From assembly GCA_947455995.1 (NCBI GenBank), contig CANGQA010000004.1, positions 1 to 64,000 of the forward strand: a stretch of 64,000 nucleotides of DNA. The letters run 5' to 3'. How positions within the stretch are numbered: position 1 is the stretch's first letter; every line of letters begins with the position of its first letter. Below the pieces are notes generated by a model, which saw only the letters and a list, made by a program, of their open reading frames with translations, did no database searches and had not been told where the DNA came from. Positions 5,847 through 62,651 of the stretch are shown here, one piece after another. A program made the position numbers and the translations under genes. The DNA is from Hyphomicrobiales bacterium (GTDB lineage Bacteria; Pseudomonadota; Alphaproteobacteria; Rhizobiales; Beijerinckiaceae).

Positions 5847-5865
5847 ATGTGCCTTCCACTCAGTG

Positions 5866-8834: not shown

Positions 8835-8872
8835 TGCTGGTTTGATTGGGGATGGATTGTGGAGCTTAGACG

Positions 8873-9751: not shown

Positions 9752-9835
9752 GAAGAACAATTCACCATAAGAACGGCATAAGTCGTCACGCTGATCACTG
9801 TGTTGGGTTGGAAACGAACAAGGGGCACGATCGCC

Positions 9836-16603: not shown

Positions 16604-16616
16604 GGAAACACACACG

Positions 16617-39671: not shown

Positions 39672-41255
39672 TCATGATTTTGTAAAAAACTCATGGAGTT
39701 TATTTTTTTGTACCTTGCCCGTGACAGTCAATGGTAAGTCAGTTTCGTTGAGAAAAATGTATTGGCGCGGGCATTTATAGGCAGCCATTTCTTGCCGGGC
39801 AAATTCTTCCAATACGGAGCGCTCTACAGGAATTTTTGGATTTTGAATGATTACGGCCCCGATTATTTCATCGCGAACGCTATCCTGCACGCCGACGACA
39901 TAGGCAATGCGCACGGCAGGATGCTTCATGAGCACCTCTTCGACCTCGACCGGTGAAACATTGATGCCACCCGTCTTGATCATTTCCTTGATGCGACCCC
40001 GGAAATGCAAATTGCGGTTGTCGTCGAGGAAGCCGATATCGCCCGTGCAAAAATAACCGTTCTCGTCAAAGGCAGCGAGATTTTTGTCTTCGTCCTTGTA
40101 ATAGCCGATGGTCACATAGCCCTTGATCCGGATTTCGCCGATCTCGTTGGGCCCAAGCACTTTTCCTGTCGCTTCCTCGACAATCCGCATATCGACACCG
40201 GGTAAAGGTTCACCGACAGTGGTCAGGCGCTGTTCCAGCGGCATACGGTAATCGGTGACATTGCAATTGCCATAGCTTTCGGTCAGGCCGTAAATATTGC
40301 AGATGTCTTTGGCACCCCAGCTCAGGATCCGCGCGAATTGCTCGGGCGTGCCGATGGTGCCACCACCCCGCATGCAACTGAGATCGTATCGGGAGCGCTC
40401 TGGATGTTCCTCGATGGCTTGTGCCATATTGGGTGTACCGTAATACATCGTGCAGCGTTCGCTATCGATAATGCGCAATGCCTCGCCTGCTTCGAAATGG
40501 TTTTGCAACACAATGCATGCGCCATGGGTGAGGATATTGAACAAGGCATTTTCACAGCCCAATCCCCAAAACAGCGAGACTGCAAGCCACAATTTATCGC
40601 GTTCGGTCACGCCCATGCGTTCGCCGATATGCCACATGTTTTCGATCAGGGCATAATGCTGCAGTTGCACCCCTTTGGGCGTCGAGGTCGAGCCGGAGGT
40701 ATAAAGAATATAGCTTACATCCTCCGGGCGGACGGCATCTGCCATATGCTGGATCGTTGCATCATCGATGAGCGTCCCGCGTTGCGGAATTTCATCATAG
40801 GACAGGGCCGTTTTGTATGTTGCCTTGGGATATTGGACGATCCATTCCAAGGCTGGCAGGTTGTCATGATGCGGTTCCAATTCGCCCAACATGGCTGTGT
40901 AATTGGATTTGAGAAAATGGTCGCTGGTGATCAGCATACGGGTATCGGAATGGTTGATCAGGTACTTCAACTCTCGATCCGTTACCCATGTGTTCAAGCC
41001 AACCATGATGGCCCCCAGCGAACAAATGGCAAGATCGGCAATAATCCATTCGGCATGGTTGCCCATCAGAATGGCAACCTTGTCACCTTTGCGGATGCCC
41101 GTAGCGTAAAGACCTTTTGCAAAGTCATGCACGGCCTCGCGCAGTTGCGGATAGGTGTAGCGTTTTGCCCCGTCGACAATGGCCTCGCGCTCCGGCCAGC
41201 GATTCGCCAATGCATCCAGTAAGGCGGGAATGGTTCTGGCTGTCGGCATCTGCAT
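39672..41255 (-). CDS. AMP-dependent acyl-CoA synthetase/ligase
   Basis: Class I adenylate-forming enzyme of 527 residues that activates a carboxylic acid to its acyl-AMP and then CoA thioester. The phosphate-loop motif is YILYTSGSTSTPKGV, the A5 motif NIYGLTESYG, the hinge region CTGDIGFLDDNRNLHFRGR, and the catalytic lysine lies in LTVTGKVQKNKL at the C-terminus. The ATG at 41255 follows GAGGG; longer frames upstream are not family-like. It is divergent from the SMP-30 gene and probably provides the CoA ester acted on by the nearby thiolase-fold proteins (inference). The acid substrate cannot be read from sequence. Confidence 0.9.
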   Translation of the reverse strand: MQMPTARTIPALLDALANRWPEREAIVDGAKRYTYPQLREAVHDFAKGLYATGIRKGDKVAILMGNHAEWIIADLAICSLGAIMVGLNTWVTDRELKYLINHSDTRMLITSDHFLKSNYTAMLGELEPHHDNLPALEWIVQYPKATYKTALSYDEIPQRGTLIDDATIQHMADAVRPEDVSYILYTSGSTSTPKGVQLQHYALIENMWHIGERMGVTERDKLWLAVSLFWGLGCENALFNILTHGACIVLQNHFEAGEALRIIDSERCTMYYGTPNMAQAIEEHPERSRYDLSCMRGGGTIGTPEQFARILSWGAKDICNIYGLTESYGNCNVTDYRMPLEQRLTTVGEPLPGVDMRIVEEATGKVLGPNEIGEIRIKGYVTIGYYKDEDKNLAAFDENGYFCTGDIGFLDDNRNLHFRGRIKEMIKTGGINVSPVEVEEVLMKHPAVRIAYVVGVQDSVRDEIIGAVIIQNPKIPVERSVLEEFARQEMAAYKCPRQYIFLNETDLPLTVTGKVQKNKLHEFFTKS

Positions 41256-41296
41256 AAAGAATCCCTCACTGTCAGGGTAGATTGAAACCACAATTT

Positions 41297-41348
41297 TGGT
41301 GGCAAGCATGGCACCATGGACAGGCGTTCACAATCGCTATGGTGGCAA
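41297..41348. promoter_or_regulatory. Direct repeats in the AMP ligase / SMP-30 divergent region
   Basis: TGGTGGCAA occurs at 41297-41305 and 41340-41348, 43 bp apart (about four helical turns), in the 238-bp gap between the divergent ligase and SMP-30 genes. It is a possible shared operator; no cognate regulator is adjacent. Confidence 0.3.
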
Positions 41349-41493
41349 TATGCATCAAGAACAAGCATAACAGCTATTCATTCGCCGGTGCTTTTTATAA
41401 AGCCCAATGGGGGCATGATAGAGGTTGCGAGAAGCACACGTTGCGGCCCTATGCATCCGGTCAAGCAGCGCTTTGGTGAGGAGAGCAATAAAC

Positions 41494-42375
41494 ATGGTCA
41501 CAATCACCGCCGTCGGCGATGTCACAATGGTCCTCGGTGAAGGGCCTGTCTGGAATGCCAGTGACGAGCGGCTTTACATGATTGATTGTGTAGGAAGCCG
41601 GATGGCAGCCTATGCCCCTGCAACCGGCCAGACAGAGGTCTGGTCTTTGCCTGAATATCCGGGCTCATATGCTTTCATGCCTGATGGCGATGTGCTGATG
41701 GCCTTTAGGCGCAAACTGGCGCGGTTGCGACTGGGGCACGGTCAAGCCGTTATTGTCACAGAGATTGATAGCGGGATTGATTTCGAGGTCGAGCGCATCA
41801 ATGACGGTGCAAGTGACGCGCAAGGCCGCTTTTGGTTCGGGACCATGGATCGGCGTCTGAAACAGCCGATAGGCCATCTCTATTGCGCGGGCCTCGACGG
41901 ACGGGTTTCAAGACAAGGGGACGGGATCGTATTGTCTAACGGCATCGCTTGGAACCAGACTCAAACGGTTCTTTATCATTGTGATTCCGGGCCTGGTGTC
42001 ATCTATGCCTATGATTTCGACGCTGCGACAGGACAAGCTGGAAATCAGCGGGTGTTTGCGGGATTGCGCGAGGGACATTCAAGCCCCGATGGGTGCACTT
42101 TGGATACGCAAGGCGGCTTGTGGGTGGTCGAAGTGGGGGCCGGACGATTGGTGCGTTTCAATCCGGATGGAACAGTTGAGCGTCGTCTGGATGTGCCTGT
42201 GACCCGCCCTACCGCGCTGGCTTTCGGTGGCCCGGACATGGCAACCCTTTTCATGACCTCCATGACCTACGATCTCAGCGATGCCGAGCGCCAGGCCCAG
42301 CCAGACGCCGGACGGTTATTCGCCATCACCGGAACAGGTTGTACAGGCGTAGCCCGTCCGCTCTATCGGGGGTGA
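41494..42375 (+). CDS. SMP-30/gluconolactonase/LRE family protein
   Basis: A 293-residue six-bladed beta-propeller lactonase, metal-dependent (Ca or Zn). Conserved regions: VLGEGPVWNASDERLYMIDC with the N-terminal metal Glu, DAQGRFWFGTMD, GIVLSNGIAWNQTQTVLYHCDSG with the metal Asn, and GHSSPDGCTLDTQGGLWVVEVGAGRLV. The start at 41494 follows GAGGAGAG; an upstream in-frame ATG has no Shine-Dalgarno. It hydrolyses a lactone, classically of an aldonic acid. It is convergent with the MmgE/PrpD gene. Confidence 0.88.
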   Translation: MVTITAVGDVTMVLGEGPVWNASDERLYMIDCVGSRMAAYAPATGQTEVWSLPEYPGSYAFMPDGDVLMAFRRKLARLRLGHGQAVIVTEIDSGIDFEVERINDGASDAQGRFWFGTMDRRLKQPIGHLYCAGLDGRVSRQGDGIVLSNGIAWNQTQTVLYHCDSGPGVIYAYDFDAATGQAGNQRVFAGLREGHSSPDGCTLDTQGGLWVVEVGAGRLVRFNPDGTVERRLDVPVTRPTALAFGGPDMATLFMTSMTYDLSDAERQAQPDAGRLFAITGTGCTGVARPLYRG

Positions 42376-42384
42376 CGGTCAGGC

Positions 42385-43737
42385 CTAGCGGGTGCGACAA
42401 AGGGCTGTGAGCGAATTCAGATTCTCCAGTGTGTCCAACTGATCCAGCATGCTCAGGACAGCATTTGCCGTAGCTGCTCCGCTGGTTTGGGTGACAGAGC
42501 GCAATAAACGTTCATGGACCATATCGGTGCTGGCGGGCACCACATCATCCTGCTCCATGTGCAATGTATTGCCGTTGCGCAGAGTAATGGACAGGCTTGT
42601 GCCTTGCTTGGCGGGAAAAGCCGATGTGTAGCCGGCTGTGCTTTGCAGATCTGTCACGTCGATCAGCCGTTTGATATCGGGGTTGTCGAGCTGGTGATAG
42701 TTATCCTCGGTAATCCGGCCGTTGGCCAGCACGGCTGCTGTGGAAAACACAATGCTCATCTTGGCTTGAAGCGCACGCTCGAATGGTCCTTTGGCATTGC
42801 AGCCCGGATAGTGCAGAGCAGCATCCGACACCCGGATCGAGATTGCAATGATATCCTGTGCCGCAATTGATTGGTTCTGCGTCAGTGTCAGTGCGCATTG
42901 GCTGGCTGTTTGGGCATAATTACAGGCCGGGGCGGGCTTGTGGTAGACGTTCATGATATCGGCCTGACCTTCGGGAAAAAGCATAATTCCATTCGGGGCC
43001 GCACGGCGTGCGAAACTGGCAAAAAGACCTGCCTCGCCCTCCAGAATATGCTCGGATGCTTCGGCACCGCCTTGTGCCAGGCGAACGGCAGTTATAGCGC
43101 TGCGCGCCGCAAATCCCGGGTGGAAATACATATCGCTGCTGCCGCTATGGGGCCATTGGTTAAGCCCTCCTGCCTGATTGGCCGCCAGAGCCAGAGCCGA
43201 CACGGTCTGATCCTCGGTCAAGCCGAGCAAGCGTGCAGCACCCAAGGCTGCACCAATCGGCGTTGTAAGGCCGGTCGGCCTGAAAAGCCGCGCCAGTTCC
43301 TTGTCGAACAATACGCGGCCCAATCGCGCTCCGGCCTCATAAGACAAGATAGCGGCATCCAGCAATTGCCGGCCAGTAACGGGTACAATTTCAGACAGGG
43401 CGAGCAGACACGACCAGACCACCACGCCATGATGGCTATTGCTTGCTGCATGCATATCTTCGCGCACCAGTCCGTGCGCCATGACCGCATTGGCAAAAGC
43501 GGCATCCATGGCACTGGCTTGCAGGGGTGAGGCCAGTATCGTGCAACCCTTTGGCAAGACAGTCGCCAAGGCCTTGGCCTGCTGGCTCCACGGCAAATCA
43601 CGCGCTTCAAAAATACAGGAAAGGAAATCGGCCAGACAAAGCTGTGCTTTCTCGCGCGGTTCCGGTCCAAGTGTTGTGATGTCGGTTGAGTGTGCCATGC
43701 GCGCCATCTGTCGCGTCAAGCTCGGAGCTATGCTCAT
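42385..43737 (-). CDS. MmgE/PrpD family protein
   Basis: A 450-residue member of the MmgE/PrpD family, which includes 2-methylcitrate dehydratase and iminodisuccinate epimerase. Conserved regions: AFANAVMAHGLVREDMHAASNSHHGVVVWSCLLAL, PIGAALGAARLLGL and a C-terminal domain of about 150 residues (YNYAQTASQ-type region reads CNYAQTASQ). The start at 43737 follows GAGGTG; a longer frame adds 22 residues. It is 16 bp downstream of the OB-fold gene and belongs to the minus-strand operon with the thiolase-fold gene. It probably dehydrates or isomerises a hydroxy acid of the pathway; no other methylcitrate-cycle gene is present. Confidence 0.87.
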   Translation of the reverse strand: MSIAPSLTRQMARMAHSTDITTLGPEPREKAQLCLADFLSCIFEARDLPWSQQAKALATVLPKGCTILASPLQASAMDAAFANAVMAHGLVREDMHAASNSHHGVVVWSCLLALSEIVPVTGRQLLDAAILSYEAGARLGRVLFDKELARLFRPTGLTTPIGAALGAARLLGLTEDQTVSALALAANQAGGLNQWPHSGSSDMYFHPGFAARSAITAVRLAQGGAEASEHILEGEAGLFASFARRAAPNGIMLFPEGQADIMNVYHKPAPACNYAQTASQCALTLTQNQSIAAQDIIAISIRVSDAALHYPGCNAKGPFERALQAKMSIVFSTAAVLANGRITEDNYHQLDNPDIKRLIDVTDLQSTAGYTSAFPAKQGTSLSITLRNGNTLHMEQDDVVPASTDMVHERLLRSVTQTSGAATANAVLSMLDQLDTLENLNSLTALCRTR

Positions 43738-43753
43738 CGGATCACCTCGCAGA

Positions 43754-44167
43754 CTAGGCCGGTTTAAACTTGACCAGAGTGACGTCGTCCGTGACGGCTT
43801 CAAAGACGGCCTTTACCCGTGTACCGATTTTGGGCGGCACACGCATGTCTACCATATTGGCAAACAGTTTTGGTCCTTCATCAAGCTCGATCACGACAAC
43901 CACATAGGGCATGTCGGTGGCAAAGCCTGGAAAATAGGTTTTATGGAACCGTGTCCATGACCAGACGGTGCCATTTCCGGATGCGCAGATCCAGTGGCGT
44001 CTGTCGCTGCCGCAATGGGGACAGGTTGAAAATGTCTGGTAACGGATATGATTGCAATCGTCACATGCGAGCAGACGCAATTCATGTTCTCTGGTCCCTT
44101 CCCAATAGGTTCGGTTGTGCCGGTCGATCACGGGCAGGGGTTTGGCGTGGCCAGTAGATGGGATCAT
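43754..44167 (-). CDS. Zn-ribbon/OB-fold (DUF35) partner of thiolase-fold protein, copy 1
   Basis: A 137-residue protein with an N-terminal zinc ribbon (C35, C38, C49, C52 in CDDCNHIRYQTFSTCPHC) and a C-terminal OB-fold. Such DUF35 proteins form complexes with thiolase-superfamily proteins and can deliver or bind the acyl-CoA; in steroid side-chain breakdown the DUF35 domain of ChsH2 pairs with the Ltp2 aldolase. The start (MIPSTG) overlaps the stop of the thiolase-fold gene by ATGA, strong evidence that the two products form a complex. It is homologous to the OB-fold gene at 47796. Confidence 0.9.
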   Translation of the reverse strand: MIPSTGHAKPLPVIDRHNRTYWEGTREHELRLLACDDCNHIRYQTFSTCPHCGSDRRHWICASGNGTVWSWTRFHKTYFPGFATDMPYVVVVIELDEGPKLFANMVDMRVPPKIGTRVKAVFEAVTDDVTLVKFKPA

Positions 44168-45309
44168 CGCGGTAAAACTCCATAGATGATCGAGGTGCAT
44201 ATGGGAGCGGCAGCCATATATTGGATTAATTCGGCATTCTCGACTTGTCGGTCGCCGCATTCCCCCCTGATCTGGCGCACAGCTTCGACATTCAAAGCCC
44301 AGCCTTGCATATAGCTTTCAGAGAGATGGCCTCCGCTTGTATTGGCAGGAAAACGCCCTCCTAGCCGCAAATGTCCTTCTTTCACCCAAGGTCCGCTTTC
44401 GCCGATCGGGCAAAACCCGTAGCCCTCCAGAGAAAATAAAACAGTCGGGGTGAAGTTGTCGTAGATCATCAGGGCATTGAGTTCGTCACGCGAGCAATCG
44501 GCCTGTTTATAGATCCGCTTGCTGATGGATTGCATCGGCTTTCGCCAGAAGTCATCTGGTGGCATTGAGCTGTCTGCCAAGGCGGTGGCCTGTTCGACGC
44601 CACGGATGTAGACGGGCTTTTTCCGGCAGTCTTTCGCACGGTCTTGCGACGTGATGATCAGTGCAACACCGCCATCATTGATCAGGCAGTAATCGAACAG
44701 ATGCAGCGGTTCGCAAATGAAGCGTGAATTCTGGTGGGTTTCGATGCTGATGGGATCGCGCATCACTGCTTGCGGATTGAGACTGGCATGCTGACGGAAG
44801 GTGACGGCAATTTCTGCGAGTTGTGCGCTGGTGGTGCCATAGAGGGCAGAATGGCGTTCAAACAACATGGCGTGTAATGCGCCGGGTGATGTCATGCCGT
44901 AGGGGAACCATTGGCCAGCGCCACCAGAGCCGTATTGGTCGCCTTCACCGCCATAACGGTCGTGGCTGCTGCGCCCATTATTGCCATAAACAATCGCCAC
45001 CACGCTGGCCATTCCGGTGGCTATTGCCATGGCGGCCTGTTGGATGGCAATGCCTGCCATGCGTCCTTGTCCCGGTAATTGCGCGGTAAAGCGCGGGTTG
45101 ATTCCGAGCATTTCGCCGAACCGCTGATAGTCGCCAATCCGGCTGACGATCAGGCCGTCCAAATCCCCCAGTGCCAGCCCTGAATCCGACAGGGCTTCCT
45201 TGAGTGCCCAGGCGCCAAGATCATATTGATCATATTCCGGCAATCGGCCGTAAGGTGTCGTGCCGACACCTACAATGGCTGGCCTTCCTGCCAGGCTGGT
45301 TATGCTCAT
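44164..45309 (-). CDS. Thiolase-fold protein (SCP2/Ltp2-like) lacking nucleophile Cys, copy 1
   Basis: A 381-residue thiolase-superfamily protein of the SCP2/lipid-transfer branch. At the usual nucleophilic Cys position the sequence reads QGRMAG (81-86) with no cysteine, and the GHP histidine is replaced by Y333 in SESYMQG after NTSGG. The C-terminal CxG cysteine of true thiolases is also absent (the end reads CTSIIYG). In Ltp2, a retro-aldolase paired with a DUF35 protein, tyrosines rather than Cys/His act in catalysis, so an aldolase or other C-C lyase role is plausible (inference). The ATG at 45309 follows GGAGGAT. It is translationally coupled to its OB-fold partner. Confidence 0.87.
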   Translation of the reverse strand: MSITSLAGRPAIVGVGTTPYGRLPEYDQYDLGAWALKEALSDSGLALGDLDGLIVSRIGDYQRFGEMLGINPRFTAQLPGQGRMAGIAIQQAAMAIATGMASVVAIVYGNNGRSSHDRYGGEGDQYGSGGAGQWFPYGMTSPGALHAMLFERHSALYGTTSAQLAEIAVTFRQHASLNPQAVMRDPISIETHQNSRFICEPLHLFDYCLINDGGVALIITSQDRAKDCRKKPVYIRGVEQATALADSSMPPDDFWRKPMQSISKRIYKQADCSRDELNALMIYDNFTPTVLFSLEGYGFCPIGESGPWVKEGHLRLGGRFPANTSGGHLSESYMQGWALNVEAVRQIRGECGDRQVENAELIQYMAAAPICTSIIYGVLPR

Positions 45310-45568
45310 GCAGATCCTCCTCATCAGTTCCAGCTGGACCAGCCTCGTTGTTCGGCTTGATGCTGGGCTTGATGGTGCCTTGTCAGTCTAGCGACGAAGT
45401 CTGGCCGGGAAGGCTCTAAATTTATGGATAACAGCTATGCAGTTGCAAAGCATAAAACAAATCTTGCGTATCGGCGCAATTAGCGGATCATAACGTGATG
45501 GATTGAGGCTGATACGCTCGGCAAGAGTGAACAATCCTGACTGGCATGAACGGACAGGGAGAGCTGGC

Positions 45569-46615
45569 ATGATGAAAGCATTGGTGGTTCGCGAGCCGGG
45601 GCGTGTCGATGTTTTGCGCTGCGAGGATGTTTCAAAGCCAAAGGCTGCTCCTCGCGAGATTGTCATCAAGGTCCATGCCTGCGGTGTGTGTTTCCATGAT
45701 ATTGTGACACGCAACGGCACCCTGAAGGCCGGTGTGAAAATGCCGTTGATATTGGGACATGAAATTTCCGGCACAGTCGAGGAGGTTGGGTCCGAGGTCC
45801 GCCATTTCAAGGTCGGTGATCGTGTCGCAACAGCTCAGAGGTTCCATGTGTGCGGGGAATGCCGGTTCTGCCGGACAGGATCGGAAACCTTGTGTCCGGA
45901 CCGTAAATTTTTAGGGGATTGGGGCCTGACAGGCGGGTATGGAGAATTTGTCGCTGTCGAAGCCGACAATGTGGCCTTGGTCCCCGACGAGGTGGATCTT
46001 TCTCAGGCTTCGATTGTGTCCTGTACAATAGGGACTATTCTCAACGCGATCCGCGAGGTTGGGCATCTGGCGCCGGGTGAGACCGCATTGGTAACGGGTG
46101 CAGGGGGCGGTTTGGGTGTCCATGCGGTTCAATTGTGCAAATTGGCTGGCGCGCGGGTTATCGCTCAGACAACCTCTCCAGCCAAAGCGGCGTTATTACG
46201 CGAACTCGGGGCCGATGAGGTGGTCGTCCATGCGCGAGGTGAGGATTTTTCCGATGAGGTCAAACGCCTGACCGGTGGTCGAGGTGTCGATGTCGCGGTC
46301 GACAATGTCGGCACCCCGATCTTTCAGCCAACCCGCAAAAGCATCGGGGTGGGCGGTCGCTGGTTGTTGATTGGGCAATTAACCGGTGATTTTGTGCCTT
46401 TTAATCCTGCACAATTGTTCTTGAAAAACATATCGATGCTGAGTGCCACCAGTACAACCCGCAAGCAGCTGCAAGATTGTCTGGAATTGGTCCGCCGCGG
46501 CAGTGTCAAACCGATTATCGAACGTGAATTGCCGCTGGATCAGGCGGCACAAGCCCATGAGCTTGTTGAACGCGGAGCGGTAACAGGACGCCTCGTTTTG
46601 CGGCCAAATCTATGA
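45569..46615 (+). CDS. Zinc-dependent alcohol dehydrogenase family protein
   Basis: A 348-residue medium-chain dehydrogenase. Catalytic-zinc ligands are C41 and the H64-E65 pair (GHEISG), structural-zinc ligands C95, C98, C101 and C109 (CGECRFCRTGSETLC, all present). The nucleotide-binding region is TGAGGGLGVHAVQLCKLAGARVIAQT. The start at 45569 follows GGGAGAG; a longer frame adds 22 residues. It likely oxidises an alcohol or reduces an enone or aldehyde. It overlaps the start of the second thiolase-fold gene (ATGA), so it belongs to the plus-strand operon and faces the first thiolase-fold gene across a 259-bp divergent gap. Confidence 0.9.
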   Translation: MMKALVVREPGRVDVLRCEDVSKPKAAPREIVIKVHACGVCFHDIVTRNGTLKAGVKMPLILGHEISGTVEEVGSEVRHFKVGDRVATAQRFHVCGECRFCRTGSETLCPDRKFLGDWGLTGGYGEFVAVEADNVALVPDEVDLSQASIVSCTIGTILNAIREVGHLAPGETALVTGAGGGLGVHAVQLCKLAGARVIAQTTSPAKAALLRELGADEVVVHARGEDFSDEVKRLTGGRGVDVAVDNVGTPIFQPTRKSIGVGGRWLLIGQLTGDFVPFNPAQLFLKNISMLSATSTTRKQLQDCLELVRRGSVKPIIERELPLDQAAQAHELVERGAVTGRLVLRPNL

Positions 46616-47799
46616 GAACGCGCGTGCTTCCAAAAGCCGCGATTGTCGGGATAGGCTGTAGTCCGTTTGGCCGCTCATTGCCCCAAAGCCAATTGGCGTT
46701 AGGGGCAATGGCCTTCAAGGCTGCGCTTGCCGATGCCGGTTTGCAACGCAATGATGTCGACGGACTCTCGCTGCATTTGGGCTGGCCGTTGGGTTCGGAC
46801 TATGACCGGTATGCCGAGGCCTTCGGTTTGGATATTCGCTATGTCAACCAGACATGGTTGCATGGCCGGTTTACTGCGCAGACATTACAAAGCGCCGCTT
46901 TTGCCGTGGCTTCGGGCATGGCCGATGTTGTGGCCTGTATCACGGCAGTCAGCTTCACGCGCGAGCGCGGTTTTCTCGGGGGGCCCAATGATGTCGAGGG
47001 CAATCGTGAAGAAGGCGGCAGCCATGGGGAAAGCCCGCCTTATGGTTTGACAGCCCCTGCAGGCGGCGCCGCACTGGCGATGCAGCGCTATATGCATCTC
47101 TATGGCACGACGGCTGAAAAGCTGGCGGCGGTCTCGATGACCATGCGGCACCATGCCAGCTTGAATCCGCAGGCCATTTTACAAAAGCCGCTTGCGCTCG
47201 AGGAATATCTTGGGGCGCGTATGGTTGTCGATCCGTTGCGGCTTTATGATTGCTCCTTGATCAATGATGGTGCCGTGGTTGTGCTGGTGACAACCGACGA
47301 GCGCGCTCGCGATCTCGGACAAAAACCTGTCTATATTTCCGGAATGCAGGGTATCAGGGCCGGGCGGGAGGAGTTTATTTTCGCGCCTCGCGGCATGGGC
47401 ATCAACCAGCAATCGGGTGTTCGCGTGCCAGCCCGCTCCGAAGATCTCGAGATTTTTGCCAGTGCAGGTTTGGATCGAAGCGATATTCAGGGCTTTTATA
47501 CCTATGATGCCTTCTCGCCCCTGGTTTTGTTTGCGCTGGAGCGCTTCGGCTATTGCGGTGTGGGCGAGGCGGCAGATTTCGTGCAAGACGGCCGCATCGG
47601 ATTGGGTGGCGCGCTTCCGATCAATACATCGGGAGGACTTCTGGCCGAGGCGCATGTCGCCGGCTGGAATTCGATTGCAGAAATGGTGCGCCAATTGCGT
47701 GGTACCGCTCAACAGCGGCAGATCAGCAGTGCCAAAGCCCTGCATTGGGGGACAAGCTGGGGTGACGGTGTGATCCTGACCAATGAGCGCAGGGCATGA
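46612..47799 (+). CDS. Thiolase-fold protein (SCP2/Ltp2-like) lacking nucleophile Cys, copy 2
   Basis: A 395-residue paralogue of the 44164 protein with the same layout. The nucleophile position reads LHGRFTAQT (84-92) without cysteine, but here a histidine remains at the GHP site, H348 in LAEAHVAG after NTSGG. The C-terminal CxG cysteine is missing (GTSWGDG). So the two copies differ at one key position and may act on different substrates or have diverged in activity. The start overlaps the alcohol dehydrogenase stop and the end overlaps the OB-fold gene, giving a coupled trio. Confidence 0.87.
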   Translation: MRTRVLPKAAIVGIGCSPFGRSLPQSQLALGAMAFKAALADAGLQRNDVDGLSLHLGWPLGSDYDRYAEAFGLDIRYVNQTWLHGRFTAQTLQSAAFAVASGMADVVACITAVSFTRERGFLGGPNDVEGNREEGGSHGESPPYGLTAPAGGAALAMQRYMHLYGTTAEKLAAVSMTMRHHASLNPQAILQKPLALEEYLGARMVVDPLRLYDCSLINDGAVVVLVTTDERARDLGQKPVYISGMQGIRAGREEFIFAPRGMGINQQSGVRVPARSEDLEIFASAGLDRSDIQGFYTYDAFSPLVLFALERFGYCGVGEAADFVQDGRIGLGGALPINTSGGLLAEAHVAGWNSIAEMVRQLRGTAQQRQISSAKALHWGTSWGDGVILTNERRA

Positions 47800-48221
47800 A
47801 GGAACGAAAAAGCATGAATGAGATGCTGGATAAACCGTTGCCCCGGATCTCGCCGGACACTAAGCCTTTTTGGGATGGCTGTGCACAGCATAGATTGTTG
47901 CTGCCGACCTGTGTTGATTGTGACAAACCCCATTTACCCCCCGGTCCTGTTTGTCCTTTTTGCTTCGGGGACCAGTTGGAATGGCGTCCGTCAAAAGGAT
48001 TGGGCCAGATATCCACCTTTACAGTGGTGCACAAAGCCTGGTTTCCATCGTTTGCCGGAGAAATTCCCTATAACGTTGTTCAAGTCGAGTTGGACGAGGG
48101 ACCGCGCTTGTCCAGCGCCCTTGTCAATATGTCGGCCGGCGACCTTTCGATAGGGGACAGAGTATCGGTTGTATTTGTCGAACTTGGCCCGATGACACTG
48201 CCCTATTTTGAAAAATCTTGA
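47796..48221 (+). CDS. Zn-ribbon/OB-fold (DUF35) partner of thiolase-fold protein, copy 2
   Basis: A 141-residue zinc-ribbon plus OB-fold protein; the ribbon cysteines are C39, C42, C53 and C56 (CVDCDKPHLPPGPVCPFC). The OB-fold follows with LGQISTFTVVHKAWFPSF and PYNVVQVELDEGPRLSSALV. The first ATG overlaps the upstream stop (ATGA); another in-frame ATG lies 18 bp later. It is a paralogue of the 43754 protein and the presumed partner of the thiolase-fold protein just upstream. It ends the plus-strand trio; the next 434 bp hold no gene. Confidence 0.9.
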   Translation: MKERKSMNEMLDKPLPRISPDTKPFWDGCAQHRLLLPTCVDCDKPHLPPGPVCPFCFGDQLEWRPSKGLGQISTFTVVHKAWFPSFAGEIPYNVVQVELDEGPRLSSALVNMSAGDLSIGDRVSVVFVELGPMTLPYFEKS

Positions 48222-48655
48222 TCGCTCCTATGCGATCTGGACGGTAATAAGGTTTAGAAAAGCGATTGTCAGTCTTGGAATATGTCATAAAAATAATGCA
48301 AAAAATATTATTTTGGATGATATTTGAGCTTGACGGCGGTTCTAATCTGTCGACACTTATCCATAACACCAGTGAGTGTGAGGGGTAGATAAACTGCCCT
48401 CGGGTTACAAAGGGAGGTCGCTGAAAACAGAGACGGACACTGTCTGGAATCTGTTCTCAACCGAAACGAGTTTCGGCTTCCCCCCAGAATAAAAGGATGA
48501 AAGGGCTCGCCCATTTATCCGTTGCGCAAGGGCTTCACGGTTACACATCCGCAGGAGCATCGCGCATTTCGGTCATGACCAAATGGCACATCAAGAATGC
48601 CATGGTTTTCTGCTTGATCCGCTAGTTGAGACAAAGGCGTAAAGGGGAAGCGAAC
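48222..48655. promoter_or_regulatory. Long structured leader/intergenic region before the second Liv operon
   Basis: A 434-bp gap without a convincing gene. It is AT-rich at the start (48290-48320) and holds several small dyads: CCGAAAC-GA-GTTTCGG (48461-48476), the palindrome GGTCATGACC (48571-48580) and ATGGCA-N9-TGCCAT (48583-48603). A leader RNA with regulatory structure, or several operators, is possible. No known riboswitch core was recognised, and no firm promoter could be fixed. Confidence 0.45.
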
Positions 48656-49618
48656 TTGGGTGAATTGGCTATCATCACTGAAAACATCTTGCAGGCTTTG
48701 GCAGCAGGTCTGTTGATTGGCTGTATTTATGGTTTGATGTGCGCAGGATTGGGCGTCATTTTTGGCGTGATGCGGGTCATCAATTTCGCCCAAGGCGATT
48801 TCATGATGCTTGGTATGTATAGTGCCTATTATCTGGCAACCAGTTTTGGACTATTGGCTGTCCTGGGCCCCTTTTTCGGGCCGGTCGCTGCAGCCATCAT
48901 AACGGGCCCGATCCTGTTTATCATAGGCATTTTTGTTCACCGCTACCTTGTGACACGTGTCACAGGTGTACAGGTGGCAGGCCTTGAAGGCGAAGGGCAT
49001 TTTGCACAGTTGATCCTGACGCTGGGTGTTGCGCTGGTCATTTCCAACGGGGCTTTGATTTTCTTCGGCTCGGAACCGCATTCGATCCGTACACCCCTGT
49101 CGCGCACCGCTTGGGAAGTCGGTCCGATCTTTGGCGATGCCGTGTCGATTTTTATCAACAAAGCCCGTTTAGTCGGAGCCGCTGTGTCTGTGCTGGTGGC
49201 TTTTGGCCTCTATATTTTTGTGACTAAATTCCGCTTTGGCAAAGCCTTGCGTGCAGCAGCAGACAATCCCCAATCGGCAACCTATGTCGGGGTCGATGTC
49301 GATCAAGCGCACCGCATTGCTTTCGGATTGGGTATTGCCATCACAGGCGTGGCAGGGGGGTTGGTTGCCAGCTATTATCCCTTCCAACCCTATGTTGGCA
49401 TTGAATTCGTGATCGTCATGTATGCCGGTGTTGTGCTGGGTGGGATGGGCTCGATCATCGGGGCATTCTGGGGCGGGTTGATTATCGGTCTTGTGCAGCA
49501 GATGTCGACACTCATCTTGCCGACGCAGTTACAGAATACTGCGATTTTTATTGTCTTCTTACTGGTGATCTTCCTGAAGCCACAAGGTCTTTTCGGCCGT
49601 AATGCGGAGAGGACCTGA
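48656..49618 (+). CDS. Branched-chain-type ABC transporter permease, LivH-like, second system
   Basis: Inner-membrane permease of about 320 residues and about eight helices. I start it at TTG 48656, which has AAAGGGGAAG before it, giving GELAIITENILQALAAGLLIG; an in-frame TTG 30 bp upstream adds basic residues. The LivH hallmark GVIFGVMRVINFAQGDFMMLGMY and the C-terminal GVVLGGMGSIIGAFWGG are clear. It heads the operon LivH, LivM-LivG fusion, LivF, binding protein. The transporter is likely the importer for the second island (inference). Confidence 0.9.
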   Translation: MGELAIITENILQALAAGLLIGCIYGLMCAGLGVIFGVMRVINFAQGDFMMLGMYSAYYLATSFGLLAVLGPFFGPVAAAIITGPILFIIGIFVHRYLVTRVTGVQVAGLEGEGHFAQLILTLGVALVISNGALIFFGSEPHSIRTPLSRTAWEVGPIFGDAVSIFINKARLVGAAVSVLVAFGLYIFVTKFRFGKALRAAADNPQSATYVGVDVDQAHRIAFGLGIAITGVAGGLVASYYPFQPYVGIEFVIVMYAGVVLGGMGSIIGAFWGGLIIGLVQQMSTLILPTQLQNTAIFIVFLLVIFLKPQGLFGRNAERT

Positions 49619-49620
49619 GC

Positions 49621-51379
49621 ATGTTCGGACGTTACTCATTCATCCGTGAAACATTGCCTATTGTCGGTTTTGCAGCGGTTTATCTTTTGTTTTCCTACTG
49701 GTTCGAGAGCTCCTATTACAAACTGATCCTGACGCTGGTGCCGATCTGGGCAACGATGGGTTTGGCATGGAACCTGTTGAGCGGCTATTCGGGTCTGGTG
49801 TCATTCGGTCATGCGTCTTTCTTCGGGTTGGGCGCCTATACAACGACACTGTTGCTTGTAAAATTCGGGATTACACCATGGATCGGTATTCCGATAAGCA
49901 TGGTTGTGGGCGGTCTATCGGGTGCCTTGATCGGCTGGCCGACCTTCCGGTTGCGTGGGCATTACTTCGCGCTGGCCATGCTCGCTTATCCGCTGGCGCT
50001 TCTCTATGTGTTCGAATGGCTCGGCTATCAGGAAGTGGCCATTCCGTACAAGCGTGAAAACGGTTTGGCCTACATGCAATTTGGCGATCAGTTCGGCTAT
50101 GTCGTGACCGCAACCTTGATGATGGTTGCGGCCATGGTGTTGTCGCGCTGGGTCGAGTTGAGCCGGTTCGGTTTGGCTCTGCTGGCGATTAAACAGAACG
50201 AGGCAGCTGCTGATGCGGTGGGCATTGATATTCTGCGCGCCAAGCTGAAAGCGATCATCCTGTCGGGGGCCATTGCGGGAGCCATAGGCGGCCTCTATGC
50301 CATTGTTCTGTTGGTTGTCACCCCGCCGTCGGTGTTCGGCATGCTGACTTCGGCACAGGCCCTGATTGTAACCCTGTTCGGTGGCGTTGGGACATTTTGG
50401 GGACCTGTCATCGGCAGTGTCATTCTGATACCGTTGAGCGAGGTATTACATGCCGAGCTCGGCCATATCCTGCCCGGCATTCAGGGTGTGGTTTTCGGCT
50501 TTGCTATTATCGGCGTGATTATTGCTGCACCTGAAGGACTTTTCTGGGGTATCCGTGATCGCTTCATGCCAGTTCCATCGCGGCGTGGGCGCGATACAGG
50601 AACCAGCAAGGTCCCGGAGGCAGCAAGTATGCACCGCACCAAACCGGCAGCAGATGCGCCGGTCATTTTGCGGGTTTGCAATGTTTCCAAAAATTATGGC
50701 GGATTGAAAGCGGTCCAGAATGTCAATTTTGATGTTCCCAAGGGCGCTATTTTTGGCATCATCGGCCCCAATGGCGCGGGCAAAACCACATTGTTCAATT
50801 TGCTCAACGGATTTACCCCGCTCAGTACAGGCCAAATCTTTCTGGATGGGCAAGATATTACAGGTTTGAGGCCCAATGAGGTCTGTCGGCTCGGGGTGGG
50901 CCGGACGTTCCAGATTGTCCGTCCGTTCATGCGGATGAGCGTGCTCGACAATGTCATTGTCGGAGCGATTTCGGCCAACGAAAATGATGATATGGCGCGC
51001 CAGCAAGCCTTGGAGGCCATCGAGATTGTCGGTCTTGCTGACTCGGTAGACCGCTTGGCCAATTCCCTGACCAACAAAGAATTGCGGCTGATGGAACTTG
51101 CGCGGGCGCTGGCTGGAAAGCCAAAGCTGATGCTGCTCGACGAAACTCTGGCAGGGCTGGGCAGCGGCGAGGTTGAGGATTTGCTGCATGTGATCCGCTT
51201 TATCGCGGCGCGCGGTGTGACGATTGTTATTATCGAGCACACAATGCAGGCCATGGTTCGTCTCGCTGATACGTTCCTGGTTCTCGATCACGGTGCGGTG
51301 ATCGGACTGGGCGAGCCAGCAGACGTGACAAAAGATCCCAAAGTGATTGAGGCATATCTCGGAAAGAAGTGGGCCAACC

Positions 51380-51387
<8 letters not shown>
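49621..51387 (+). CDS. Fused LivM-LivG: ABC permease-ATPase
   Basis: A 588-residue fusion. Residues about 1-320 are the LivM-type permease (LAWNLLSGYSGLVSFGHASFFG hallmark near 40, about ten helices). Residues about 321-345 form a charged linker (RRGRDTGTSK, KPAADA). From about 346 a LivG-type ATPase follows: Walker A GPNGAGKTT, signature region LTNKELRLMELARAL, Walker B MLLDETLAGL (DET in place of the usual DEP), H-loop IIEHTMQ. Fusion fixes permease-to-ATPase stoichiometry. It is seen in other alphaproteobacterial Liv-type systems. It follows livH by 2 bp and overlaps the livF-like gene by 8 bp. Confidence 0.92.
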
Positions 51388-52087
<700 letters not shown>

Positions 52088-52206
52088 ACAGTTTCGGTGT
52101 CGGCTCGCGCCGGCATACAAAGCACGCACTCACGAAGTATCGAAAAGCTCGGGTGATGATCATTGTGACAGTCTACTGAGCCATAAAACTCAAGGGAGAG
52201 AACACC

Positions 52207-53427
52207 ATGTCAATGATACGCAGAACACTGTTGATGTCGCTTGGCGCCGCAAGCTTGATGGTCGGGACTGCTATAGCCCAAACCAACGAGATCAAGGTTG
52301 GTGTCATCGCGCCATTTTCTGGCCCGTGGGCCAGACAGGGCGAATTGATGTTGAAGGGTGCCGAGCTGGCTATTGACCATATCAATGCATCCGGCGGTAT
52401 CAAATCCATGGGCGGTGCCAAGCTCAAACTGCTGACATTCGATACCAGTGACAGCGCGGAAAAAGCCAAAAATGCAGCACAGCGCATGGTCTCGCAAGAG
52501 CCTGATCTTGTTGCTGCCACCGGTGCATGGCTTAGCTCTTTCACACTGGCTGTTACCGAAGTAACAGAGCGCGCCGAACTGCCCATGACGACGCTGTCTT
52601 ATGCCGACCAGATCAATACCCGCGGTTTCAAATATATTTTCCAGACCTCCCTGCATGCCGATGCACAGGCCAAGGCTGTGTTGCCAGCGGTTCTTGCTGT
52701 CGGTGAACGTGTCGGGGCAAAAGTAAAAACCGCCGCTATTTTGGTGGACAACACTGCTGCTGCTTCCGGCTTTGCCAAGCCAATGCGTGAGGGCGCGCTG
52801 GAAAAAGCCGGAATTAAACTGGTCGTTGATGAAACATTCACACCGCCGCTTGCCGATGCCACGCCACTCATTCAGAAAGTGCGTTCCACCAAGCCCGACC
52901 TGCTGTTTCTTCTGCCCACGGCAGTCTCTGATGACAAGCTGATGATCGAAAAACTCTCGGAATTCGGCATGGGCCAAGGCAAGCTGCCGATCGTCGCTAA
53001 CGGGGCGCATTTTGGTACACCAGAAGTGCTCAGATCGGTTGGTCCCGAATTGATGGAAGGCGTGATGGTCTCGGTTGGCAACTGGGTTGTCAAAGGCCAG
53101 GAAGATATTCTGGCACAATTCAAAAAGAAGACCGGCGAGCCCTGGATGACCCAAGACAGCCTGTCGAGCTATGGCGATATGTGGATCTTCAAGGAAGCAT
53201 TGGAAATCGCCAAAAAGGCCGATCGTAAAGCTGTTGCCGATGCCATCCGCTCAATGGACACGACCGAAGGCCCCGCAAAATTCTTCCCCGGCGGTCGGAT
53301 CAAATGGGATGAAACAGGTCGCCGCGTCGGTGCGAATGTGGTGATCGTCCAATGGCAAAAGGGCGTTCCCGTGCCGGTTTATCCGCCTGAAACAGCAACT
53401 CATGCACCGATCTGGCCCAAGAACTGA
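52207..53427 (+). CDS. Liv-type ABC transporter substrate-binding protein
   Basis: Periplasmic binding protein, 406 residues, of the LivJ/LivK (Peripla_BP_6) class. The signal peptide is MSMIRRTLLMSLGAASL with a cleavage site after TAIA-Q near residue 25. The mature part begins IKVGVIAPFSGPWARQGELMLKGAELAIDHINASGG, and the hinge region FKYIFQTSLHADAQAK follows the family pattern. The start follows GGGAGAG. It supplies specificity to the second transporter and is followed by a strong hairpin. Confidence 0.92.
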   Translation: MSMIRRTLLMSLGAASLMVGTAIAQTNEIKVGVIAPFSGPWARQGELMLKGAELAIDHINASGGIKSMGGAKLKLLTFDTSDSAEKAKNAAQRMVSQEPDLVAATGAWLSSFTLAVTEVTERAELPMTTLSYADQINTRGFKYIFQTSLHADAQAKAVLPAVLAVGERVGAKVKTAAILVDNTAAASGFAKPMREGALEKAGIKLVVDETFTPPLADATPLIQKVRSTKPDLLFLLPTAVSDDKLMIEKLSEFGMGQGKLPIVANGAHFGTPEVLRSVGPELMEGVMVSVGNWVVKGQEDILAQFKKKTGEPWMTQDSLSSYGDMWIFKEALEIAKKADRKAVADAIRSMDTTEGPAKFFPGGRIKWDETGRRVGANVVIVQWQKGVPVPVYPPETATHAPIWPKN

Positions 53428-53474: not shown

Positions 53475-53554
53475 TGAATAACGCAAAACAGTTTTTTAAA
53501 CCTGCGATGCTGCCCATCTGCAGCACTGATTGATATTGAAATGGAGTGATAACG

Positions 53555-53929
53555 ATGAACAAAGAATATTTTGATCGTGGCATGAAAATCCGCAAGGAAG
53601 TGCTCGGGGCGGAATATGTTGAAAAATCTTTTGCCGCAGCGGACGATTTTAATCGTCCCCTTCAAGAGCTTGTAACCGAATATTGCTGGGGTGCAGTCTG
53701 GGGCCGCGACGAGCTGCCAAAAAAGACTCGGTCCATGCTAAACCTTGCGATGATTTCTGTTTTGAACCGTCCCCATGAATTAAAAATTCATGTGAAGGGC
53801 GCGATCAAAAATGGTTGCACAAAAGACGAAATCCGCGAAGTTTTGCTCCAGGTCGCCATTTATGGCGGAGTCCCGGCAGCGGTCGATTCTTTCCGTATTG
53901 CCCGCGAGGCTTTCAAGGAAATGGAATGA
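53555..53929 (+). CDS. Carboxymuconolactone decarboxylase family protein (PcaC-like)
   Basis: A 124-residue AhpD/CMD-fold protein of the PcaC type. It carries LQELVTEYCWGAVWGRDELPKKTRSMLNLAMISVLNRPHELKIHVKGAIKNGCTKDEIREVLLQVAIYGGVPAA-type blocks (described in parts): the tryptophan-rich start, RSMLNLA, the ELKIHVKGA histidine and VLLQVAIYGG. There is no CxxC redox pair, so peroxidase activity is unlikely and decarboxylation or a related step on a lactone is more likely. The start at 53555 follows TGGAGTG; an in-frame GTG 9 bp earlier is less likely. It sits between the Liv operon and a reductase gene. Confidence 0.87.
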   Translation: MNKEYFDRGMKIRKEVLGAEYVEKSFAAADDFNRPLQELVTEYCWGAVWGRDELPKKTRSMLNLAMISVLNRPHELKIHVKGAIKNGCTKDEIREVLLQVAIYGGVPAAVDSFRIAREAFKEME

Positions 53930-54008
53930 GTGCTTTCAAGGCTGCCCCAGCGAGGGGCGGCCTTGATGTGTTCGAGGCCAAGTGGTCAGCTCTGAAGAAT
54001 GGATGTGC

Positions 54009-54902
54009 ATGATGGATATCGGTTTCATTGGACTTGGGAATATGGGTTTTCCGATGGCGCGGCGTTTAATGAATGCCGGTCATCATGTGGTTGCTTATGA
54101 CACCCGACCCGAAGTCTTGGCGCAATTGGTTGCGCTTGGCGCTGCTGCTGCGGTTTCACCGTTGGATGTCGCCTCGAAGGTTGAAACCGTGATGAGTTCT
54201 TTGCCGACGCCCGCTATCGTGCGTGCTGTGGCCCTTGGACCCGATGGTCTTTTGAACGGTACAAAAATCAAACGTTTCATCGAAATGTCGACAACCGGTT
54301 CACAAACCGCGATCGAGGTTGGTCAGGCTTTGCGTGAGCGTGGTATCCAGATGATCGATAGTCCGGTGTCCGGAGGCGTCAACGGGGCCGTCAATGGCAC
54401 TTTGGCTGTCATGGTCTCGGCACCCCAACAGGATTTTGATCTTCTGAAACCGGTACTCGATATTATCGGCAAAGTGTTTTTTGTCGGAGAAAAGCCGGGT
54501 TTGGCACAGACAATGAAACTGGTGAATAACTACCTGTCCGCAACAGCCTTGGCGGTCACATCCGAGGCGATGTCGGTGGGTGCAAAAGCCGGTCTTGATC
54601 CGGCCTTGATGATCAGTGTCATCAATGCGGGCAGTGGCCGAAATTCTGCATCTCAAGATAAATTTCCAAAGTCAATCTTGCCCGGAACATTCGATTTCGG
54701 CTTTACAACGGCCTTGATGTTCAAGGACCTTTTGCTGTTCAAACAAGAGGCAGACTATATGCATGTGCCGACCACGATTGCTCCGGAGGTCCATGCCCTT
54801 TGGCAAGCCACCCATGATCATGAAGGGGCTGATAGTGATTTTACCGCGGTCGCCAAGGAGGTTGAACGGCGTGTCGGAATCAGTTTGCGGGCCAAATCCT
54901 GA
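54009..54902 (+). CDS. NAD(P)-dependent beta-hydroxyacid dehydrogenase (HIBADH family), paralogue 3
   Basis: About 297 residues. Rossmann motif GLGNMG at 8-13 (from the ATG at 54009), substrate loop SPVSGGVNGAVNGTL (from 118), and catalytic K170 with N173/N174 in MKLVNNYL. This is the most canonical of the three paralogues and resembles tartronate semialdehyde and 3-hydroxyisobutyrate enzymes. Several ATGs crowd the start; two upstream and one downstream are in frame, so the exact start is uncertain. It follows the CMD-like gene by 79 bp and precedes a LysR gene. Confidence 0.88.
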   Translation: MMDIGFIGLGNMGFPMARRLMNAGHHVVAYDTRPEVLAQLVALGAAAAVSPLDVASKVETVMSSLPTPAIVRAVALGPDGLLNGTKIKRFIEMSTTGSQTAIEVGQALRERGIQMIDSPVSGGVNGAVNGTLAVMVSAPQQDFDLLKPVLDIIGKVFFVGEKPGLAQTMKLVNNYLSATALAVTSEAMSVGAKAGLDPALMISVINAGSGRNSASQDKFPKSILPGTFDFGFTTALMFKDLLLFKQEADYMHVPTTIAPEVHALWQATHDHEGADSDFTAVAKEVERRVGISLRAKS

Positions 54903-54956: not shown

Positions 54957-56018
54957 ATGGCGCGATCAGGTGACAGGCGTGATGGCCCGGTGAACAATGC
55001 GCAACACAGGGATTCAGCATCGGGCCGTCATCTGGCTGGCGAAGAGGCCTTGAGCCTCAAGAAACTGGTTTATTTTACCACTCTTGTTGAAACAGGTAGT
55101 TTCTCCAAGGCTGCTGTCGCTCTGGAGGTGGCCCAGTCTTCCGTAAGCCGTGTTGTCAAATCGCTGGAGAATGATTTCGACGTCGAATTGCTATACCGCA
55201 ATGGCAGAGGCATTATCCTGACGGATGCTGGCAAGCTGTTGGATGGATATGCGCGGCGGATCCTTGATCTGGTCACCACCACACAAAATGAGGTTTGCGC
55301 TCTTGGGGATACGCCGATCGGCCGTGTCATCATAGGTTTGCCTCCTTCTGTCGGACGGGTTCTGACGCTTCCGCTGGTCCGACAGTTCCGGATGGCGTTT
55401 CCCAAGATGAATTTGAAAGTAGTCGAAGCCCATAGCGGCCATGTGCTTGAATGGTTGTCATCGGGGAAGATTGATGTCGCAGTCCTCTACAGCGCGCCAA
55501 AATCCACCATGATGGTCGCCGAGCCGCTGGTCGAGGAAAGCCTTTATTTGATTGGCAGTCCGACCGGAGCAGGCCAACCGAGCGGCGTATCGGTTTCGAT
55601 CGCCGATCTGGCTCGTTTTCCGATGGTCATGGCCAGCTTGCCACACGGCATGCGTGTGCTTGTCGAGAAACATTGTGCAGAAGCAGGGGTGTCACTCAAT
55701 GTCGAATGTGAGATTGATGCCATGCCTGCGGTCATTGATCTGGTTGAAGCCGGAGTTGGTTTTACCATCCTGCCCTATGCCCCAGTCCATGATTTGATCA
55801 AACACGGACGCTTGAGGCTGTGGAAGATCGATAACCCGCCGATCAAGCGCCAGCTGCTGTTGGTTACGTCAACCCAACGACCGATGACTTTGGGGACACG
55901 GCACCTTGCCCGTATGGTCCGGACACAGGTGAAAGAACTTGTTGCGGAGGGCTTATGGTCCCCTCCAGACTGTCTGTCACATGACGGGCAATCAAATCCC
56001 ACATCACTCACAACTTAG
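54957..56018 (+). CDS. LysR family transcriptional regulator, second
   Basis: A 353-residue LysR-type regulator with an unusually long polar N-terminal tail of about 32 residues before SLKKLVYFTTLVETGSFSKAAVALEVAQSSVSRVVKSLE, the winged helix-turn-helix. A TTG start at the serine before LKKL would give a normal length, so the tail may be non-coding. The effector domain is at about 125-330. Unlike the first LysR it is co-directional with its neighbours, 54 bp after the reductase and 9 bp before the Ldh-type gene. It probably controls the Liv and downstream genes (inference). Confidence 0.87.
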   Translation: MARSGDRRDGPVNNAQHRDSASGRHLAGEEALSLKKLVYFTTLVETGSFSKAAVALEVAQSSVSRVVKSLENDFDVELLYRNGRGIILTDAGKLLDGYARRILDLVTTTQNEVCALGDTPIGRVIIGLPPSVGRVLTLPLVRQFRMAFPKMNLKVVEAHSGHVLEWLSSGKIDVAVLYSAPKSTMMVAEPLVEESLYLIGSPTGAGQPSGVSVSIADLARFPMVMASLPHGMRVLVEKHCAEAGVSLNVECEIDAMPAVIDLVEAGVGFTILPYAPVHDLIKHGRLRLWKIDNPPIKRQLLLVTSTQRPMTLGTRHLARMVRTQVKELVAEGLWSPPDCLSHDGQSNPTSLTT

Positions 56019-59632: not shown

Positions 59633-59712
59633 AAAGAACCCCCGGGTTTTATTTTTTTGATTAAAGCGGATTGTATCATTGGCTTTTGAAAAGAAGGAAC
59701 AACAAAGCCCAC

Positions 59713-62441: not shown

Positions 62442-62651
62442 AACCGCTCCTTTTTTGGAAATATAACAGAGCAGGCGAAACCGTAAAGGCACGACCAACC
62501 AAACAGCGATTGTCTTTTCTGAGCGCTCCCTGATTTTTTCCCTCTTATGAATTGCAAAGGCAGGAAGCTGTTGTAGAATGAGAGAATAGAATTAAAAAAT
62601 CAGTTGGACCTGCGTGTGTGTGCTGGATTTCATCAACATAAAGAGGGGACT
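62442..62651. promoter_or_regulatory. hutI / transporter divergent region
   Basis: 210-bp gap carrying the promoters of hutIHU and of the NMT1-type transporter. It is AT-rich, with GAGAGAATAGAATTAAAAAATC near 62580. No HutC-type palindrome and no strong dyad were found. Confidence 0.4.

Follow-up and report, generated by a model that had tools for sequence, protein, structure and literature searches.

Retro-aldolases that combine a thiolase fold with a DUF35 partner are known from steroid breakdown, where Ltp2 acts with the DUF35 domain of ChsH2 (6ok1) and the bile acid retro-aldolase Sal with the DUF35 protein Shy (9myr). In Ltp2, Tyr294 of the YDHF motif is the base and Tyr344 the acid, whereas Sal uses Tyr302 as base and Cys304 as acid and carries Gln352 at the place of Tyr344 (PMC12329534). 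Where thiolases bear the nucleophilic cysteine, Sal holds a glycine and Ltp2 an equivalent one, which the authors of the Sal study argue to rule out thiolysis (PMC12329534). More generally, DUF35 genes have long been known as neighbors of thiolase-superfamily genes (PMC2954200). Here, we describe two pairs of such genes, T1–D1 and T2–D2, which flank an alcohol dehydrogenase (ADH) gene in a window of 64,000 nucleotides—positions 1 to 64,000 of contig CANGQA010000004.1 of Hyphomicrobiales bacterium (Beijerinckiaceae; GCA_947455995.1). The two pairs probably encode DUF35-dependent retro-aldolases of different subfamilies within one coenzyme A (CoA)-dependent breakdown pathway.

The original prediction described thiolase-fold/DUF35 pairs with an ADH in between, and its open reading frames (ORFs), strands, and coordinates are correct. 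T1 (44164–45309, minus strand, 381 amino acids (aa)) and D1 (43754–44167, minus strand, 137 aa) run divergently from an operon of the zinc ADH (45569–46615, plus strand), T2 (46612–47799, plus strand, 395 aa), and D2 (47796–48221, plus strand, 141 aa). The proposed coupling of each thiolase-fold gene to a zinc-ribbon/OB-fold DUF35 gene can be read directly from ATGA overlaps between T1 and D1 (44164–44167, minus strand)—which sets the boundaries of D1 given above—and between T2 and D2 (47796–47799); a third overlap links ADH and T2 (46612–46615). The DUF35 partnership is thus seen at the level of genes. The ADH frame, a zinc ADH by Pfam, spans 45503–46615 from a TTG, with the ATG at 45569 as likely start. 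A scan of 45200–45700 revealed one terminator-like and no promoter-like sites.

In an alignment of T1 and T2 with Ltp2, Sal, the putative thiolase 4u4e from Sphaerobacter, and the Cys-bearing thiolase 7yvy, the nucleophile column is occupied by Gly82 in T1 (codon 45066–45064) and by Gly85 in T2 (codon 46864–46866), in agreement with the predicted lack of a nucleophilic Cys in either protein. The base Tyr of the YDxF/Y motif is found in both, as Tyr283-Asp-Asn285-Phe in T1 (Tyr283 codon 44463–44461) and Tyr298-Asp-Ala300-Phe in T2 (Tyr298 codon 47503–47505). At the column of the GHP His, T1 bears Tyr333 (codon 44313–44311) and T2 bears His348 (codon 47653–47655), also as foreseen. The two sites do differ; however, the odd one was misplaced. 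Tyr333 corresponds to the state of the catalytic acid Tyr344 of Ltp2, and, hence, T1 is the Ltp2-like protein and less strange than first claimed, whereas T2 is the unusual one. A loss of function through Tyr333 was discarded for the same reason. By the aligned residues, T1 has the Tyr pair of Ltp2, and T2 a Tyr/His combination absent from both Ltp2 and Sal. His296 of the Ltp2 YDHF motif is unmatched by Asn285 and Ala300, and instead of Cys304 and Gln352 of Sal there are Asn and Tyr in T1 and Ala and His in T2. 4u4e shares the Gly, the Tyr base, and a His at the T2 position; it differs by its YDSF motif (Ser for Ala) and its place elsewhere in the tree described below, and its entry title is without a function. 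SCP2 and acetyl-CoA thiolases such as 7yvy share the fold, and T2 keeps their GHP-type His, but T1 and T2 lack the nucleophilic Cys, bear Tyr for the His of HDxF, and have a coupled DUF35 partner.

Both large proteins match Thiolase_C_1 of Pfam (102.7 and 101 bits; cut-off 28), and D1 and D2 match OB_ChsH2_C and zf-ChsH2 above cut-off. By sequence, the closest solved relative of T2 is Ltp2 (6ok1, 6.6e-64), and those of T1 are 4u4e (2.9e-68) and 6ok1 (1.5e-61). The AF2 models of T1 (pLDDT 91.0, pTM 0.93) and T2 (pLDDT 86.8, pTM 0.91) display the thiolase fold of the DUF35-dependent retro-aldolases. In VIA-align comparisons, 6ok1 is the top match of the T2 model (Z 49.8, 369 residues, 2.3 Å) and ties with 4u4e (Z 50.0) for the T1 model (Z 50.6, 367 residues, 2.1 Å); a Foldseek search, run for T2 only, likewise ranked 6ok1 first (1.3e-35). 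The SCP2 thiolase 6hrv reached Z 42.8 and 45.4 against the T2 and T1 models, respectively, and classical thiolases about 33–35 against both. For D1, the best PDB matches are the DUF35 chains of Shy (9myr_B, 6.9e-21) and ChsH2 (6ok1_B, 2.1e-17). Four cysteines are present in D1—CDDC(35) and CPHC(49)—and in D2—CVDC(39) and CPFC(53)—as in the partner of Ltp2, whereas the zinc site of Shy is Cys3His1. In the Ltp2 system, DUF35 is part of ChsH2 together with a MaoC domain, whereas it is a free protein here and a hydratase partner was not found.

The residue states of T1 and T2 recur more than by chance. A survey of 94 sequences (the window, L008, L009, and L081–L171; 80 loci being the top hits of an alignment which includes T1 and T2) yielded 114 family members including T1 and T2, of which 51 share the Gly/YDNF/Tyr state of T1 and 17, in 17 loci, the Gly/YDAF/His state of T2. 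Gap/YDSF/Tyr was found in 15 and Gly/YDCF/His in nine members, the remainder being rarer combinations. The nucleophile column holds Gly in 93 members, a gap in 16, Ser in two, and Cys in three, and a DUF35 gene lies just downstream of 104 members—the ten without it include all three Cys-bearing ones.

A tree of 88 rows was calculated by a quick and, hence, less reliable method after thirty of 118 rows that shared 80% identity or more with others had been dropped. T1 and T2 fall into separate clades of 15 rows (support 96) and 13 rows (support 100), apart from Ltp2, which groups with four other rows (support 99) on a long branch (1.04). The T2 clade ranges from Proteobacteria to a haloarchaeon. 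The dropped rows include five of the T2 clade and, with L093, one of the T1 clade, so that 18 T2-clade and 16 T1-clade loci were counted; L094, a partial T2 kin, was left out, and L184, found later, is likewise uncounted. Gly/Ala/His is conserved in 12 of the 13 T2-clade rows, the exception being Gly/Ser/Met in L163. This member (16340–17524), with YDSF and a Met for the His, shares its locus with three other family members and might be yet another variant of the active site. When the count is restricted to the 79 rows that bear Tyr or His, the tree can be explained by two changes at this column. The thiolase His of the T2 clade may have been either kept or regained, as some branches close to this clade have weak support (84, open) and the method was a quick one. 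In addition, a YDAF/Tyr group sister to Ltp2 (support 99) shares loci with T1-clade genes (L098, L109, L138, and L163), and no DUF35 gene was found directly downstream of its members there.

T1- and T2-clade genes lie together in five of the 18 T2-clade loci (the window, L082, L099, L167, and L163), and a second member without the Cys is present in eight of the 16 T1-clade loci—co-occurrence counts which are inflated by selection, since the search alignment contained both kinds and some loci were fetched for carrying both. All five shared loci contain an ADH and an SMP-30 lactonase, four a ligase or CoA-transferase, and three an MmgE/PrpD gene. Chelativorans sp. J32 (L082) and Prosthecomicrobium hirschii (L099) share the order T1-D1-ADH-T2-D2, with all five genes on one strand, and both bear Liv genes, SMP-30, and a MaoC/FAS1-type hydratase gene directly beside T1, with MmgE and Ldh2 in addition in L082. 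Plasmid pDK3 of Rhodococcus sp. DK17 (L167) carries MmgE, ligase, T2 kin/OB-fold, ADH, T1 kin/OB-fold, and SMP-30 genes within about 24 kb. The DUF35 partner of this T2 kin (18271–18672) keeps one CxxC pair only and seems to have lost one of the four zinc cysteines. In G112 (L163), T1 kin (68%) and T2 kin (48%) are joined by two more family members. In Polaromonas (G799), T2-D2, SMP-30, MmgE, and ligase are found on one contig and T1-D1-ADH on another. A plasmid of the haloarchaeon Natronosalvus halobius (L170) encodes a T2 kin (45%) and two more thiolase/OB-fold pairs in a cluster with MmgE/PrpD, carboxymuconolactone-decarboxylase (CMD), ligase, and CaiB genes; the two members other than the T2 kin show an odd alignment at the columns of the active site.

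The genes around T1–D1 and T2–D2 would fit the following route. A branched-chain-type ABC transporter (LivH, LivMG, LivF, and LivK; 48626–53427, plus strand), which likely serves substrate uptake, would import an acid. Its LivK matches Peripla_BP_6 of Pfam, whereas LivH, LivMG, and LivF were named by eye from their ORFs. An SMP-30/gluconolactonase-like protein (41425–42375, plus strand) might open a lactone, and an AMP-forming acyl-CoA ligase (39672–41309, minus strand) would activate the acid. The hydroxyl could be placed onto the beta carbon by the MmgE/PrpD family protein (42385–43737, minus strand; start assumed at ATG 43737 of an ORF from 43803) directly downstream of D1—nearest PDB match cis-aconitate decarboxylase, 2.8e-18—and by the MaoC-type hydratase in relatives. 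An aldolase would then cut between the alpha and beta carbons to give an acyl-CoA and an aldehyde or ketone, and the ADH would convert the carbonyl or alcohol around this step. As in Ltp2, Tyr283 would act as base and Tyr333 as acid in T1. In T2, Tyr298 would be the base and His348, at the thiolase GHP-His place, the likely acid, because T2 lacks both the Tyr that serves Ltp2 as acid and the Cys that serves Sal. Perhaps, the two aldolases cut successive intermediates, similar to Sal and then Ltp2 on the cholate side chain.

The remaining neighbors are a CMD family protein (53546–53929), a 3-hydroxyisobutyrate-dehydrogenase family protein (53982–54902), and, named by eye from their ORFs, a LysR-type regulator (54957–56018) and an Ldh2/malate-dehydrogenase-like protein (56028–57017), all on the plus strand. 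Homologues of many of these genes accompany T1 and T2 kin elsewhere. A ligase or CoA-transferase is present in 14 of the 18 T2-clade loci, and for two of the other four (L081 and L099) a ligase homologue (60–64%) lies elsewhere in the genome; the ligase query matched all seven genomes or records with T1/T2 kin, with best matches of 36–64% identity per genome. ADH homologues (41–72%) occur with T1 and/or T2 kin in L081, L082, L092, L093, L098, L099, L109, L138, L163, and L167, and MmgE/PrpD homologues in L184 and the T2 loci L082, L167, and L170. SMP-30 homologues are found in L082, L092, L093, L096, L099, L109, L161, L163, L181, and L184 and, by annotation, in L167. All four Liv homologues are present in L082 (59–72%), and LivH and LivMG in L099. 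CMD and 3-hydroxyisobutyrate-dehydrogenase homologues occur in the T1 locus L092 (58% and 53%) and beside the thiolase-fold/DUF35 pair of L171 (59% and 45%), an Ldh2 homologue (57%) in L082, and LysR homologues near the ligase in L182 (49%) and L183 (48%), where amidohydrolases are found as well. The neighbors vary: L082 adds MaoC hydratase, TRAP, and CoA-transferase genes and L092 a Rieske oxygenase, and L162 (1–10979) places ligase-T2-D2 beside hydantoinase A/B and phenol/alkene hydroxylase genes (Pfam). In L161 (1270–5272), the T2-D2 kin lies beside a BioF/Kbl-type pyridoxal phosphate acyltransferase (4-base overlap) and an NAD-dependent epimerase/dehydrogenase, which is a different metabolic setting for a T2-type aldolase. 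The neighbors point to a lactone or a branched hydroxy acid as candidate substrate, but differ between loci. A release of acetone from 3-hydroxy-3-methylbutyryl-CoA by T2 was a thought prompted by L162 only, and PMC8084838, on ketone degradation with a DUF35 gene, has no bearing on it.

Several observations weigh against two retro-aldolases of one pathway. No T1-clade gene is found in 13 of the 18 T2-clade loci, and G796, G797, G253, and G345 carry T2 but no T1-type match—the two are, thus, non-obligate partners, whose co-occurrence is in addition favored by the selection of loci described above. T1 falls outside the Ltp2 clade, its YDNF motif is without the His296 of Ltp2, and T2 is without the Ltp2 acid. 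For the MaoC-type hydratase of the neighbors, one query without positive control gave no homologue in the own genome, and, therefore, hydration would here fall to MmgE/PrpD or an unseen gene; at 94% completeness and 158 contigs, missing genes of this genome may be unseen. Cys-bearing relatives score close behind Ltp2 against the T2 and T1 models (in this order, 6esq with Z 46.7 and 49.3, 7yvy with Z 44.4 and 46.8), so that the predicted fold speaks for the family and does not settle the chemistry. Independent modules side by side, i.e., two retro-aldolases for unrelated substrates that share transport and regulation, would account for loci with T1-D1-ADH and no T2 (L092 and L093) or T2-D2 and no T1 (L081, L083, L161, and L162, the sequence of L081 and L162 being incomplete on one flank), and for the separate contigs of Polaromonas. 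We consider this unlikely, as the gene order is the same in Chelativorans and Prosthecomicrobium, pDK3 has both types with one ligase, one ADH, and one MmgE, and either type is accompanied by one ADH family.

The proximity of T1 and T2 genes in five loci might also reflect a mixed complex of one catalytic protein and one inactive partner, like PhlA beside PhlC in PhlABC (PMC2954200), and the central dimer of the Sal complex (PMC12329534) makes a mixed dimer thinkable. The own coupled DUF35 and YDxF Tyr of each protein, the conserved residue pattern of the T2 clade, and the occurrence of either clade without the other render this very improbable. Somewhat less remote, and still improbable, is the synthetic direction, in which aldol or Claisen-type condensing enzymes would join a carbonyl and an acyl-CoA to a beta-hydroxyacyl-CoA: aldol reactions are reversible and 6esq scores high, but ping-pong acyl transfer needs the Cys that is missing here, and uptake system, ligase, lactonase, and LysR make for a catabolic-looking neighborhood. 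That T1 and T2 are ordinary or decayed thiolases is suggested by the names of the matching NCBIfam models—acetyl-CoA acetyltransferase, lipid-transfer protein, and thiolase domain-containing protein—none of which reaches its cut-off (for T1, 294 bits at best versus 469). It is hardly credible: the Gly at the Cys column, shared with most of the family, argues against an ordinary thiolase, and decay disagrees with intact long frames and residues conserved across phyla. Two retro-aldolases in one pathway, hence, remain our preferred reading, and homology, the predicted fold, and the residues at the active-site columns speak for the earlier idea of two C–C lyase modules with different chemistry, as far as two retro-aldolase modules with different sites in one catabolic cluster are concerned.

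The pairs had also been called duplicated, which does not hold. T1 shares 53% and 50% identity with two genes on contig C35 of its own genome and 40% with T2, which rules out a local duplication; in line with their separate clades, T1 and T2 are old paralogues lying together. The cluster looks acquired or patchily kept, because no full-length match to T2 above 42% identity was found beyond T2 itself in 60 genomes (the own one and 59 relatives); two short fragments, each some 50 residues long, show 43% (G002) and 44% (G039). In wider searches, T1 (398 genomes, E≤1e-105) matched its own genome only and T2 (385 genomes, E≤1e-75) matched four genomes, its own included. The C35 genes belong to a second two-pair cluster (L008, G000:C35:8000-26000, at 5385–12073) of Tyr-type thiolase-fold/DUF35 pairs, which is present in G003 and G008 too; in its member TB, the nucleophile column is a gap, and its neighbors, named by eye, are CaiB-like CoA-transferase, SMP-30-like, hydrolase, and amidohydrolase genes. 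Elsewhere in the window, apparent histidine-utilization genes (urocanase-, HutH-, and HutI-like; 57971–62498) were named by eye from their translations, and neither RNA families nor tRNAs were found within the 64 kb.

For non-steroid substrates, a precedent is the ibuprofen pathway, where IpfE is a DUF35 protein. IpfDE carries out a retro-aldol cleavage to propionyl-CoA and 4-isobutylcatechol (PMC9195938). Likened by description only, both systems share thiolase-annotated genes and a ligase-first, CoA-dependent, non-steroid pathway; IpfDE acts after a ring dioxygenase, unlike T1 and T2 as proposed. A further locus of the same genome (L009, G000:C6:26000-38000, at 4885–11801) resembles the ipf locus and looks closer to IpfDE than the T1/T2 cluster does: it holds, by eye, apparent Rieske oxygenase genes, a reductase, and two CoA ligases, as well as a thiolase-fold protein with YDDY/Gln and a DUF35 domain fused to an apparent short-chain dehydrogenase/reductase (423 aa). 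Sal- and Ltp2-type genes occur in a 120-kb steroid mega-cluster of Comamonas TA441 (PMC12502768), which sets a precedent for a steroid gene region with two distinct aldolases linked to DUF35; the window itself has no steroid ring genes by its gene list. In view of these systems, the locus is less singular than the original claim of an unusual, undescribed cleavage system implied, since this kind of retro-aldolase is already known. The Tyr/His site of the T2 type is novel, and so is the module of two aldolases, for which no paper was found among the matches listed in the open-licence literature.

Going further, the T2 clade might represent a third chemical class of thiolase-fold retro-aldolase—a Tyr/His pair, with the thiolase His kept or regained as general acid—which, together with an Ltp2-like Tyr/Tyr enzyme, would form an undescribed two-cut catabolic module. 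Such a module would act on a hydroxy acid or lactone of non-steroid nature and would have spread through Proteobacteria and Actinomycetota, with the T2 type also in a haloarchaeon. This is a tentative proposal, on which we would not yet count. Aldolases of the Sal kind could serve steroid synthesis (PMC12329534). The Tyr/His variant provides a test of how the thiolase fold shifts between Claisen and aldol chemistry, and the recurrent two-aldolase module is a concrete pathway to find. Since T1- and T2-type genes are named acetyltransferase, thiolase, or lipid-transfer protein, possible C–C cuts are easily missed in metabolic maps. Although similar to enzymes of steroid degradation, T1 and T2 seem to work in a different pathway, which is as yet undescribed and is found again in bacteria of several kinds.

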